Shown here: piece after piece, positions 2,196 through 4,850 of the stretch | How the letters are laid out: every line of letters begins with the position of its first letter | Numbering within the stretch: the stretch's first letter is position 1 | Assembly: GCA_947488485.1 (NCBI GenBank) | Contig: CANKZO010000122.1 | Coordinates: 1 to 6,694, forward strand | DNA from: Opitutia bacterium | GTDB lineage: Bacteria > Verrucomicrobiota > Verrucomicrobiae > Opitutales > UBA953 | Direction of reading: 5' to 3' | DNA: 6,694 nucleotides | The notes under the pieces: model-generated | Told to the model about the DNA's origin: nothing | The model's database searches: none | The model's input: only the letters and a program-made list of their open reading frames with translations | Translations under genes and position numbers: made by a program

Positions 2196-2221
2196 GGTAG
2201 GGGCAGGACTAAGTCATGCCC
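2196..2221 (+). repeat. REP1 element
   Basis: The head ggtag (2196-2200) is followed by arm gggcaggac, loop taa and arm gtcatgccc. Eight of nine positions pair, with a G-A mismatch at stem position 6. Confidence 0.7.
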
Positions 2222-2248
2222 GCCTGTCTCGATGTGTTCCCAGCCGCC

Positions 2249-2284
2249 AACCGCTAACCGCTATCACCTCGCGGCTCTGCCGCG
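2249..2284. repeat. Short direct repeat and 6-bp hairpin upstream of REP2
   Basis: The heptamer aaccgct occurs twice in tandem at 2249-2262. At 2270-2284, cgcggc pairs perfectly with gccgcg around the loop tct. Like the palindrome at 2174-2191, this hairpin is followed almost at once by a gggtaggg head, so a palindrome-gc-agggtaggg arrangement occurs twice. Confidence 0.55.
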
Positions 2285-2287
2285 CAG

Positions 2288-2313
2288 GGTAGGGTCGGGA
2301 CCGCGTCACGACC
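2288..2313 (+). repeat. REP2 element
   Basis: The head ggtag (2288-2292) is followed by arm ggtcgggac, loop cgc and arm gtcacgacc, then tag. Eight of nine positions pair; the mismatch is again G-A at stem position 6, the same place as in REP1. Confidence 0.75.
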
Positions 2314-2325
2314 TAGCTGTCTCTG

Positions 2326-2351
2326 GGCAGGGACGTGACGGCGTCGCGTCC
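2326..2351 (+). repeat. REP3 element
   Basis: The head is ggcag (2326-2330), then arm ggacgtgac, loop ggc and arm gtcgcgtcc. All nine positions pair if one G-T wobble at stem position 6 is allowed. The 21-nt hairpin differs from REP6 (opposite strand) at one base only. Confidence 0.75.
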
Positions 2352-2361
2352 GCTGTATCGA

Positions 2362-2387
2362 GGTAGGGACAGCACCACGTGCTGTCC
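2362..2387 (+). repeat. REP4 element
   Basis: The head ggtag (2362-2366) is followed by arm ggacagcac, loop cac and arm gtgctgtcc, then tag. All nine positions are Watson-Crick pairs, making this one of the two perfect stems of the cluster. Confidence 0.8.
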
Positions 2388-2406
2388 TAGTTGTTTAGTT
2401 ATCTAG

Positions 2407-2433
2407 GGCAGGGCGGTAATCGCTATCGCCGCC
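2407..2433 (+). repeat. REP5 element
   Basis: The head ggcag (2407-2411) is followed by arm ggcggtaat, loop cgct and arm atcgccgcc. Seven positions match, one is a wobble and one is a mismatch, so this is the weakest member. Confidence 0.55.
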
Positions 2434-2504
2434 GTTCGAGGCCGTAGATGGGGAGTCGTCGGGACTTAGCTAAGCAAGATGAAATCGTACGTCCGTCCGC
2501 GATC

Positions 2505-2530
2505 GGACGCGACGCCGTCGCGTCCCTACC
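2505..2530 (-). repeat. REP6 element, inverted
   Basis: Read on the minus strand, the head ggtag (2530-2526) is followed by arm ggacgcgac, loop ggc and arm gtcgcgtcc, a perfect 9-bp stem. It faces REP7 head to head across a 13-nt spacer, so the two form a BIME-like pair. Their heads give the inverted repeat ccctacc / ggtaggg at 2524-2550. Confidence 0.8.
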
Positions 2531-2543
2531 TTTTGATGCATCG

Positions 2544-2570
2544 GGTAGGGCTGGCCATCCTTGGCCGGCC
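2544..2570 (+). repeat. REP7 element
   Basis: The head ggtag (2544-2548) is followed by arm ggctggcca, loop tcct and arm tggccggcc. All nine positions pair with one T-G wobble. Its last two bases overlap the right arm of the 39-nt inverted repeat. Confidence 0.7.
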
Positions 2571-2627: not shown

Positions 2628-4565
2628 TCAGAACGCCCGACGGAGGCTGATCGCGCCGGAGATATCCGGGGATTCGCCGACACCGGCGACATGAACCGTG
2701 AAGGACAGCGTGGTCTGGGCGTCGAGCTTGTGGTCGACGTCCAGGCCGAAGCGGGCCTGATCGCGGACCGGGTCGGCGGTCGGCAGCGAGAGCGTGAGCG
2801 TGCTCGTGATATCCGTCGCGGTGAGCGCGGCCTGGTCGTGGTCGTAGCGGCGGATCCACTCGGCCGAGAGACGGACCTTGGTGTCGGCACCGATGGCGCG
2901 GATGGCGGCGAGGCCCAGTCGGCCTTCCTTGGCGGTCTGCTCCATCGCGCTGAAGCTGCCGGCAAAGGAGCCTCCGGTTTCCGCATAGGCATCGGAGCGA
3001 ACCTTGCTATGGCCGTACGACACGTAGGCCTTGAGGTCGGTCTCGTAGGCGCGGGCGAGGACGGGCGAATCGTAGCGGAGGCGGAAAGCCTTGCTGGCGA
3101 GGTCGGTCTCGCCGTGGGAGTAATCGATGCCGCCACCGGTCACGTAACCGCGGTCGGTGCGGTTGTTCCAATCGCCTGCGGAAGCCAGCAGGGAGAAGAT
3201 GCCGCCATCGGCCTGGATCAGGTCGACCTCGCCGACGAGGTACTGGCCGGCGTTACGGGCCGTGCCGCCGTTGGCGAGCTTCTGATCCTGCACGCCGTAG
3301 CCGGCGCCGATGCCGATCAGGACGTTGGCCCAGGGCTCGAAGGTCGCGCCTGCTTCGCCGGAACGGGTGAGCAGGTCGCGGGAGCGGGAGCTCGAGGCGA
3401 TGTCGCCCGTCGCCCAGTAGGAGCGGCCGCGACCGAGGTCGGCGAGCGGACGGTGGTGCGCTCCTTCGAGGTGCGTGCGGGCCAGCTCAAGGCCGGTCGA
3501 GAGCGTGGAGTGCACGCCGGCGACGGAGCCCAGCCAGTCCTGGGCGTCCAGCATCACGGCGTCGTGGTAGATGAACGTCCGCGTGCTGCTGGCGGATTCG
3601 CTCTGGCCGACGATGACCGAGCCGTCAGCGGACACACCGGTCGCTGCCGAACCCGTGTCGCCCGGGAGAGCGCCAAGGCTGGTCATGCCATCGGTGGAGG
3701 TCCAGCGGAAGGCGTACCAACCGTTGGTCGAATGGCTTTGGCCGACGACGACCGAACCGTCCGCGGAGACGCCAAGGGCGGTCGAAGAGCCTCCGCCGAC
3801 GAGCGTGCCTAGGTCGACCATGCCCCCGCTTACGGTCCAGCGGAAGGCGGCGTTGGCGGACGAGGAATTGCTGGCTCGCCCGACGACGACGGAGCCGTCG
3901 GAGGAAGTGGCGTAAGCGCAGGAGTCGGTGCCTCCTGTCAGCGTCCCGAGGTTGGTCATGCCGCCGGCGGAGGTCCAGCGGAAGGCGCGTTGCCCGCTGA
4001 CCGAGTCGCCGTAGCCCACGACCACGTTGCCGTCCGCCGAAACACCATAGGCTTGGGAGTGGGTGCCACCCGCGAGGATGCCTAGGCTGACCATGCCGCC
4101 TGCGGAGGTCCAGCGGAAGGCGCGATCGCCGTTGGTGGAGCCTGACATGCCCACGACCACGGAGCCATCGGCCGAGGCGCCTCGGGCGTCGGATTCGATG
4201 CCGCCCGAAAGGACGCCGAGGTCGGTCATCGATCCGGAGGTCCAGCGAAAGGCCCTGCTGGTATTTGAGACTGAGAAGCTACGCCCGACGACGACCAGGC
4301 CGTCGGCGGAAATGCCGTTGGCCATGCTGACGAGGTGTCCGGAGAGCGTTCCGAGGCTGGTCATGCCGGCCGAGGTCCAGCGGAAGGCGCGGTCGCCGCT
4401 GGCCGTGTCAGCGTAACCGACGATCACGGTGCCGTCGCCGGAGATCGCATTCCCGTAGGCGTAGGTGCCGCCGGGAAGGAGTCCGAGGTCGGTCAGCGTG
4501 CCGGCGGACAAGGTGCAGGAGGCCATGCCAGCGGCCAGGAGGAAGGCGGAGGTGCGCGGGGTCAT
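2628..4565 (-). CDS. HAF-repeat autotransporter with C-terminal beta-barrel
   Basis: This complete gene encodes 645 residues, ATG at 4565-4563 and TGA at 2630-2628. Residues 1-22 look like a Sec signal peptide (positive start, FLLAAGMA core, probable cleavage after SAG). Residues 25-338 hold seven tandem HAF-type repeats of 44-46 residues with core LGxLxGG, then SADGSVVVG, then AFRWTSAGGM. Residues ~382-645 resemble an autotransporter beta-domain: SYWATGD, alternating amphipathic strands, and the C-terminal ending SLRRAF with the terminal Phe usual for outer-membrane barrels. The expected role is a barrel in the outer membrane that exposes the HAF domain at the surface; its ligand is unknown. 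There is no clear Shine-Dalgarno sequence before the ATG, but no other ATG or upstream start is better. The gene is divergent from the 5011 gene and convergent with the cytochrome gene. Confidence 0.93.
   Translation of the reverse strand: MTPRTSAFLLAAGMASCTLSAGTLTDLGLLPGGTYAYGNAISGDGTVIVGYADTASGDRAFRWTSAGMTSLGTLSGHLVSMANGISADGLVVVGRSFSVSNTSRAFRWTSGSMTDLGVLSGGIESDARGASADGSVVVGMSGSTNGDRAFRWTSAGGMVSLGILAGGTHSQAYGVSADGNVVVGYGDSVSGQRAFRWTSAGGMTNLGTLTGGTDSCAYATSSDGSVVVGRASNSSSANAAFRWTVSGGMVDLGTLVGGGSSTALGVSADGSVVVGQSHSTNGWYAFRWTSTDGMTSLGALPGDTGSAATGVSADGSVIVGQSESASSTRTFIYHDAVMLDAQDWLGSVAGVHSTLSTGLELARTHLEGAHHRPLADLGRGRSYWATGDIASSSRSRDLLTRSGEAGATFEPWANVLIGIGAGYGVQDQKLANGGTARNAGQYLVGEVDLIQADGGIFSLLASAGDWNNRTDRGYVTGGGIDYSHGETDLASKAFRLRYDSPVLARAYETDLKAYVSYGHSKVRSDAYAETGGSFAGSFSAMEQTAKEGRLGLAAIRAIGADTKVRLSAEWIRRYDHDQAALTATDITSTLTLSLPTADPVRDQARFGLDVDHKLDAQTTLSFTVHVAGVGESPDISGAISLRRAF
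3552..4493 (-). repeat. Seven tandem HAF-repeat coding units
   Basis: Units encode residues 25-68, 69-113, 114-158, 159-203, 204-249, 250-294 and 295-338. The repetition shows at DNA level: the plus strand carries gaggtccagcggaaggcg or close variants about every 135 bp. The last unit departs from the consensus, with TFIYHDAVM in place of AFRWTSAGGM, as expected at the junction with the linker and barrel. Near-identical units could allow copy number to change by recombination. Confidence 0.88.
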
Positions 4566-4655: not shown

Positions 4656-4850
4656 GCGCCGTGAGGCATCGCTTCGGCCCTCTCAGGGGTAAGGGCCGCA
4701 CCACATGTGGCCCGCGGAGCTCCGTGCGAGTCTCCGAGATGAATCACGCAAATTATTCATAATTAATAATTTAAATAAATCAGGCCAGGACGCCGATCCC
4801 GGGGTCTTCGTGCGTGCGCCAGGTCTGCCGCTGATTCAACCACGCCAGTA

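Follow-up and report, generated by a model that had tools for sequence, protein, structure and literature searches.

An intergenic array of GTAG-type REP hairpins in an Opitutia bacterium, very probably a mosaic of several RAYT-linked families

The gap between two convergent genes in DNA of an Opitutia bacterium holds seven hairpins with GGTAG or GGCAG heads and differing stems. This array very probably is a mosaic of several GTAG-type REP families, each spread by its own REP-associated tyrosine transposase (RAYT), that landed in one tolerant convergent gap; at least four families, and probably five or six, are present. A constant head with differing stems is therefore explained by several RAYT–REP families sharing one gap, and no new mechanism is needed. 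The evidence comes directly from the head, pairing and covariation of the hairpins, from their abundance and intergenic placement in relatives, from the hairpins flanking RAYT genes, from the link between RAYT class and stem, and from the differing contents of orthologous gaps.

We propose that every REP family owes its spread to a RAYT of its own; these enzymes, Y1 HUH transposases of the IS200/IS605 superfamily, would act on single-stranded hairpin DNA. The GTAG head would serve cleavage, and pairing together with the apex (the loop and its closing pairs) would serve recognition, whereas the mid-stem would exist as a few alternative paired versions. Members of different families could then have inserted in the same tolerant site between convergent genes. 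That RAYTs moved the copies in our DNA, that they did so on single strands and that the hairpin parts have these recognition roles is what we infer with the help of published cleavage data (PMC8266576).

Seven hairpins in a convergent gap

The window (the whole stretch of DNA analyzed, 6,694 bases) contains three main open reading frames (ORFs), none of which is a transposase. Gene 1 (3–2102, + strand), truncated at the window edge, encodes DUF7133 and cytochrome c domains; gene 2 (2628–4565, − strand), convergent to gene 1, encodes an autotransporter beta-domain; and gene 3 (from 5011, + strand), divergent from gene 2, contains a passenger repeat. The whole REP array lies inside the intergenic gap (2103–2627) between the 3′ ends of genes 1 and 2. 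Rfam at gathering thresholds gave no match in the window. A pattern of GG[TC]AG followed by a 9-bp stem (at least 8 of 9 pairs, G–T counted) with a 3–4-nt loop occurs exactly seven times in the window, six times on the + strand and once on the − strand and always within 2196–2570, in agreement with the sequence-only reading, which had listed seven such heads and stems. Relaxing the threshold to 7 of 9 pairs adds one hairpin (2256–2281, − strand), probably by chance. The head is GGTAG in five elements, placing an exact GTAG beside the stem, and GGCAG in two (2326 and 2407).

Compared with stems that flank RAYT genes in relatives, one window stem is identical, four differ by 1–2 bases and two by 5 bases. 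REP 4 (2362–2387, +), with a GGTAG head, a perfect stem (GGACAGCAC/GTGCTGTCC) and loop CAC, is identical to the REPs flanking all six members of RAYT class 9. REP 2 (2288–2313, +; GGTAG head, stem GGTCGGGAC/GTCACGACC, loop CGC) is one base away from REPs flanking RAYT class 8 (L082, L127), and REP 7 (2544–2570, +; GGTAG head, stem GGCTGGCCA/TGGCCGGCC, loop TCCT) is two bases away from a REP flanking a class 6 RAYT (L069). REP 6 (2505–2530), which has its GGTAG head on the − strand, a perfect stem (GGACGCGAC/GTCGCGTCC) and loop GGC, differs by two bases from REPs of both class 16 (L117) and class 17 (L086). REP 3 (2326–2351, +; altered GGCAG head, stem GGACGTGAC/GTCGCGTCC, loop GGC) is two bases from the class 17 REP and three from the class 16 REP. 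The other two elements lack a close cognate RAYT-flanking hairpin, which counts against our explanation: REP 1 (2196–2221, +; GGTAG head, stem GGGCAGGAC/GTCATGCCC, loop TAA) differs at 5 of 22 positions from its best counterpart, and REP 5 (2407–2433, +), with an altered GGCAG head, an imperfect stem (GGCGGTAAT/ATCGCCGCC), loop CGCT and a weak fold, differs at five positions from its nearest, in class 15.

Folded as single-stranded DNA, four of the seven elements are strong, with none of 200 shuffles as good; 2288 and 2326 are moderate (5 and 7 of 200 shuffles as good) and 2407 is weak (33 of 200, z −0.95). Taken alone, REP 5 is uncertain as a genuine REP. It faces REP 6 at a spacing similar to that seen for REP pairs beside class 15 RAYTs (L096, L130), and this opposite-orientation arrangement, a feature of BIMEs and REPINs, recurs in further pairs beside RAYTs. 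REPs 3 and 5 are predicted to be immobile because GCAG substrates are reported to be barely cleaved by the S. maltophilia enzyme (PMC8266576). REPs 1 and 2 (2196, 2288) each carry one G·A mismatch, at stem position 6, and so form 8 of 9 pairs. The same mid-stem mismatch as in REP 2 is present on both sides of the RAYT in the class 8 REPs of two genomes (L082, L127) and recalls the bulge needed by E. coli REPs.

Covariation of the two arms

Pairing was analyzed in an alignment of 23 elements with 3-nt loops, which includes five of the seven window elements and leaves out 2407 and 2544, whose loops have 4 nt. The covariation score is 0.778 versus 0.184 in shuffles, none of 500 reaching it (slid controls score 0.04–0.13); the opposite arm does change to match, as had been claimed from the window alone. 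Cells in which both sides change number 59 versus 17.0 ± 3.4, again reached by none of 500 shuffles. The expectation that covariation would emerge with more copies was thus borne out by these two measures but not by two others: double-change pairs (7 versus 5.4, a level matched by 59 of 500 shuffles) and additional pair types (18 versus 15.1, matched by 49 of 500) do not stand out among the 23 elements. The figure of 98.6% paired positions is partly built in, the 23 rows having been pre-filtered for pairing.

A covariance model (R1) built from this alignment, a scan that the sequence-only reading had proposed, found matches in all ten relatives scanned, at least 72–118 per genome out of 150 candidates scored. 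Its window matches are REPs 1–4 and 6, which were also its building input, and REP 7 at E 0.008; REP 5 reaches 11.0 bits (E 0.19). We compared eight further genomes, each by 150 scored candidates: four family members without a found RAYT gave at least 12 (G009), 0, 0 and at least 55 (G066) matches, and four more distant Verrucomicrobiota gave none.

RAYT genes flanked by like hairpins

The NF047646 profile (REP-associated tyrosine transposase) has matches in 10 of 13 relatives (E ≤ 0.01) and in 49 of 79 genomes of the family (E ≤ 1e-5). Alone it is unspecific, as 6 of 14 named control genomes match too. Matches exceed its 80-bit cut-off in 3 of the 13 relatives and 11 of the 79 family genomes; the 30 loci from the relatives score 53–85 bits, and the first short RAYT scanned (L042) scores 69.5 bits, below the cut-off. 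Pfam PF01797 detected RAYT-like genes in five of seven relatives with fewer matches, so NF047646 was used.

We examined 71 RAYT loci, a selection that does not take in every match of the 79-genome search: 20 were picked for mostly short open frames, and many long or partial NF047646 matches (for example in G019 and G021) are outside this set. Three loci without a parsed ORF (L098, L109, L116) were dropped, leaving 68, of which 55 encode short RAYTs and 13 encode Y1 proteins from other branches. The catalytic Y aligns in all 55 short RAYTs and HxH is present in all 55, the latter being partly built in because ORFs were picked by an MP[DN]H-like motif, which the three dropped loci lacked. Accepting flanking hairpins at 7 of 9 pairs within 450 bases, we found 49 of the 55 short RAYTs to be bracketed by GGTAG hairpins, five to have them on one side and one (L120), which aligns as a different clade, on neither. 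Three of the one-sided genes (L077, L105, L138) begin at the start of a contig. The sequence-only reading had called the elements REP-like, REPs being known for a GTAG-type head beside a palindrome and for movement by RAYTs; they are REPs of the GTAG type, and the relatives contain RAYT genes flanked by like hairpins.

The 13 other Y1 proteins (225 aa or longer, or containing an NQGAYH/HVFSRG-type motif; 171–322 aa in the sequence available, some truncated at contig ends) were set aside as movers: GGTAG hairpins occur on both sides of none of them and on one side of one (L099), with one flank out of view in four (L083, L090, L092, L136) that reach a contig end. Five longer Y1 proteins (L076, L083, L084, L085, L095; 301–322 aa as read) have the NQGAYH motif and no GGTAG hairpin within 450 bases, and are another Y1 branch in those genomes. 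G019 and G021 have 8 and 20 NF047646 matches, an expansion of a more distant Y1 family; most of them align with the profile's second half and sit within long open frames. Searches with NF047646 found no RAYT in G003, G007, G009 and G066, although these genomes have at least 87, 83, 12 and 55 hairpin matches, respectively; the hairpins may be leftovers, or the MAGs may be incomplete.

Stem sequence follows RAYT class

In a set of 48 RAYTs (50 before two near-identical proteins were merged; L077, L125, L131, L138 and the hairpin-less L120 are outside it), uncorrected RAYT protein distance correlates with the distance between flanking hairpins (Mantel r 0.75; none of 5,000 permutations as high, maximum 0.15). 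Average linkage with a 45% distance cut divides the RAYTs, which come from one family and mostly from MAGs, into 18 clusters. The correlation may only reflect that gene and hairpin travel as one unit or are co-inherited. By part, the apex gives r 0.68 and the mid-stem 0.63; the two basal pairs are uninformative (−0.02), and stem positions 1–2 (basal GG/CC) are near-universal among unique, class-balanced hairpins. Agreement at 5′ positions 8–9 and the first two loop bases is 0.83–0.94 within and 0.25–0.42 between classes; the third loop base (0.92 within, 0.82 between) is largely common. Mid-stem position 6 is the most variable within class (0.49), with positions 3, 4 and 7 at 0.73. Where one RAYT has distinct arms beside it (44 pairs, each with four or more differences), the two arms share an identity of 0.79 across the apex and 0.54 across the mid-stem.

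The best-matching hairpins of two same-class RAYTs, by contrast with these distinct arms, have a mean distance of 0.04 in the apex and 0.04 in the mid-stem. Because same-class hairpins are equally close in both parts, each class consists of a limited number of paired stem variants and not of a cloud of drifting sequences, and a free mid-stem is unsupported. A strict apex-only code is likewise unsupported, given apex and mid-stem correlations of 0.68 and 0.63 and equal conservation within class. The earlier suggestion that head and fold are selected, and not the stem sequence, therefore holds in part. Much of the stem does vary under a constant head and maintained pairing, but RAYT classes differ from one another in the loop and upper stem, where hairpins of a single class agree. 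The stem sequence is not free: its apex is conserved within class and its mid-stem recurs in few paired versions.

These patterns would be compatible with a family-wide recognition code across the 18 RAYT clusters, which we consider possible though on balance doubtful. In such a code, the apex (the loop and two closing pairs) would identify the cognate RAYT, a common cleavage platform would be formed by the head and basal GG/CC, and the mid-stem would be a paired spacer, not necessarily alike in both arms of one RAYT. If so, new families would arise by joint change of apex and RAYT on a fixed platform.

Alternatively, on the strong form of the sequence-only reading, a single RAYT could move any GGTAG hairpin whatever its stem, with stem diversity reflecting neutral drift under one enzyme. 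The near-identity of head and basal GG/CC in all classes would fit such an enzyme, as would the mid-stem differences between distinct arms beside one RAYT and the presence in one relative, BS6 (G005), of four RAYT matches but more stem types than that in a 400-kb sample. The stem nevertheless follows RAYT class, several BS6 stem types that have no RAYT there flank one in a relative, and a TnpA-REP of S. maltophilia is reported to require a specific loop base (PMC8266576). We thus judge a single permissive enzyme unlikely, and favor several families each spread by its own RAYT.

Abundance, placement and turnover in relatives

Chance was tested in 20 stretches of 20 kb (400 kb) from BS6. The hairpin pattern has 46 matches there versus 0–5 in ten dinucleotide shuffles (mean 2.2), and GGTAG is the top pentamer head (41 of 615, 6.7%, versus 0.19% overall), followed by GCCGC with 18; hairpins sharing one cluster are not independent, and clustered copies were counted singly. 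Because no pairing filter was applied to them, GGTAGGG sites provide a test without pairing bias: a hairpin follows directly at 39 of 82, compared with 0–1 of the 44–133 sites of each of seven control 7-mers. At GGCAGGG a hairpin follows 3 of 99 sites. Just one of the five GGCAG matches in BS6 has a stem of the REP families, and GGCAG thus looks like an altered head.

In position, 36 of the 39 GGTAGGG hairpins in BS6 lie outside mechanically called ORFs (at least 150 aa), which cover 87% of the sample. Together with the model matches in all ten relatives, this gives many dispersed, mainly extragenic copies in the relatives, as is typical of GTAG REPs. Of the 35 BS6 hairpins with two neighbors, 18 are in convergent, 14 in unidirectional and 3 in divergent gaps, whereas convergent gaps make up 27 of 150 gaps in BS6.

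Such placement also raises the possibility that the hairpins persist chiefly as transcription terminators or stabilizers of mRNA 3′ ends between convergent genes, the GGTAG head being incidental, and 2090–2640 of the window does contain four terminator-like sites versus an expected 0.2; three of the four coincide with the stems of REPs 4 and 6. A terminator, however, has no need for a GGTAG head, yet this head has the highest count of any pentamer; moreover, the hairpins flank RAYT genes on both sides and their stem class tracks RAYT class. Maintenance mainly for termination therefore seems very unlikely to us, although terminator work could be a secondary use of hairpins that RAYTs have spread. 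Chance hairpins in GC-rich DNA are refuted for the set, despite a G+C content of 63% that raises the hairpin background in the BS6 sample and a model score for REP 5 (11.0 bits) no better than that of an unrelated-looking site at 4688–4713 (11.7 bits), by the excess over shuffles and control 7-mers in BS6 and by the absence of model matches in six of the eight comparison genomes (150 scored candidates each).

Gene 1, which is 94–95% identical in amino-acid sequence to its counterparts at four loci (L001, L002, L006, L021), was the query for finding this locus in related genomes. In the 700 bases downstream of it, hairpins of this kind occur in 14 of the 18 relatives scanned, with sets that differ among them, and are absent from four (L004, L008, L014, L020). 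In five relatives (L001, L002, L006, L007, L021), the gene start that follows gene 1 differs from that in the window, judged by inspection of unaligned sequence; these gaps therefore indicate turnover of the region rather than clean empty sites.

Comparison with known REP systems

The kind of element is already known. The sequence-only reading had called many stems under one head unusual, but several coexisting GTAG families, in Opitutus terrae among others, and GTAG families across the PVC superphylum were reported in 2013, including sub-families with alternative complementary stem residues, repeat-specific REPtrons and placement mostly between convergent or unidirectional genes (PMC3733652). 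Likewise, RAYT-linked REP classes, 22 and 13 of them, have been described in Pseudomonas and Stenotrophomonas, with a class defined by its RAYT (Nunvar 2013, PMC3686654). Among the titles listed by our literature searches, none concerned REPs of this Opitutae lineage.

Like the GTAG REP families described earlier, those of O. terrae included, which mostly have stems of 6–9 bp, the present elements carry a GTAG tag at one end and have short loops (Di Nocera 2013, PMC3733652). They also resemble the families in that paper in occurring as several per genome, in complementary stem variants and opposite-orientation pairs, in gap placement and in their repeat-specific REPtrons. They belong to a different Opitutae lineage from O. 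terrae, and the likeness is one of architecture and placement. With Stenotrophomonas REPs they share a class set by the flanking RAYT and 8–9-bp stems directly beside the tag, but the phylum and the stem sequences are other than in Stenotrophomonas and Pseudomonas, and here 18 RAYT clusters fall within one family (PMC3686654).

Short, mostly perfect palindromes beside GTAG are also a trait of group 3 TnpA-REP/REPtrons (Corneloup 2021, PMC8266576). All nine pairs are Watson–Crick in many of our classes; in classes 8 and 14, unlike group 3, a mismatch or bulge interrupts the middle of the stem in RAYT-flanking copies, which by their hairpins come closer to the bulged E. coli group 2. The requirements measured for group 3 TnpA-REP, namely GTAG, pairing and a loop base, agree with what is conserved in our hairpins. 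In vitro, cleavage by the S. maltophilia enzyme is reported to depend on GTAG, one loop base and an unmismatched stem, with limited effect of changes in the central or upper stem (PMC8266576). Changing the three bottom stem positions improved cleavage by that enzyme, however. The cleavage data thus fit the apex conservation but not the near-universal basal GG/CC, which is another point against our explanation (PMC8266576).

Measurements of how a RAYT selects its REP exist for few pairs, and that work covers three duos (PMC8266576). The present genomes offer many transposase–hairpin pairs that can be compared within one bacterial family, a natural data set on RAYT–REP recognition. With many diverged pairs, one common head and related small genomes, the recognition rule could be read from evolution and tested by swaps of apex and mid-stem.

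Other repeats in the window and its relatives

An outer inverted repeat of 40 nt, 85% complementary (2123–2162 and 2568–2607), brackets the entire REP array. The start of its left arm, GGGGAACTGCTG, has five copies in the 400 kb of BS6 and occurs also at L003 and L021; this left motif also lies behind genes elsewhere, and the RAYT of L047 is bracketed by a pair resembling the outer repeat. The repeat is perhaps another dispersed element, or it forms the ends of a larger unit.

Other short repeats were noted at window position 2251 and downstream of gene 1 in L004, L005 and L021. Among them, CCGCTAACCGC has 12 copies in the BS6 sample, whereas GGACTGAATGGA and GGGCTGAATGGA have 6 and 3 copies in eight relative loci and 0 in that sample. 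Finally, the weak REP-model match at 4688–4713 (E 0.14), in the gap between the divergent genes 2 and 3, is possibly a decayed REP with a GGTAA head.
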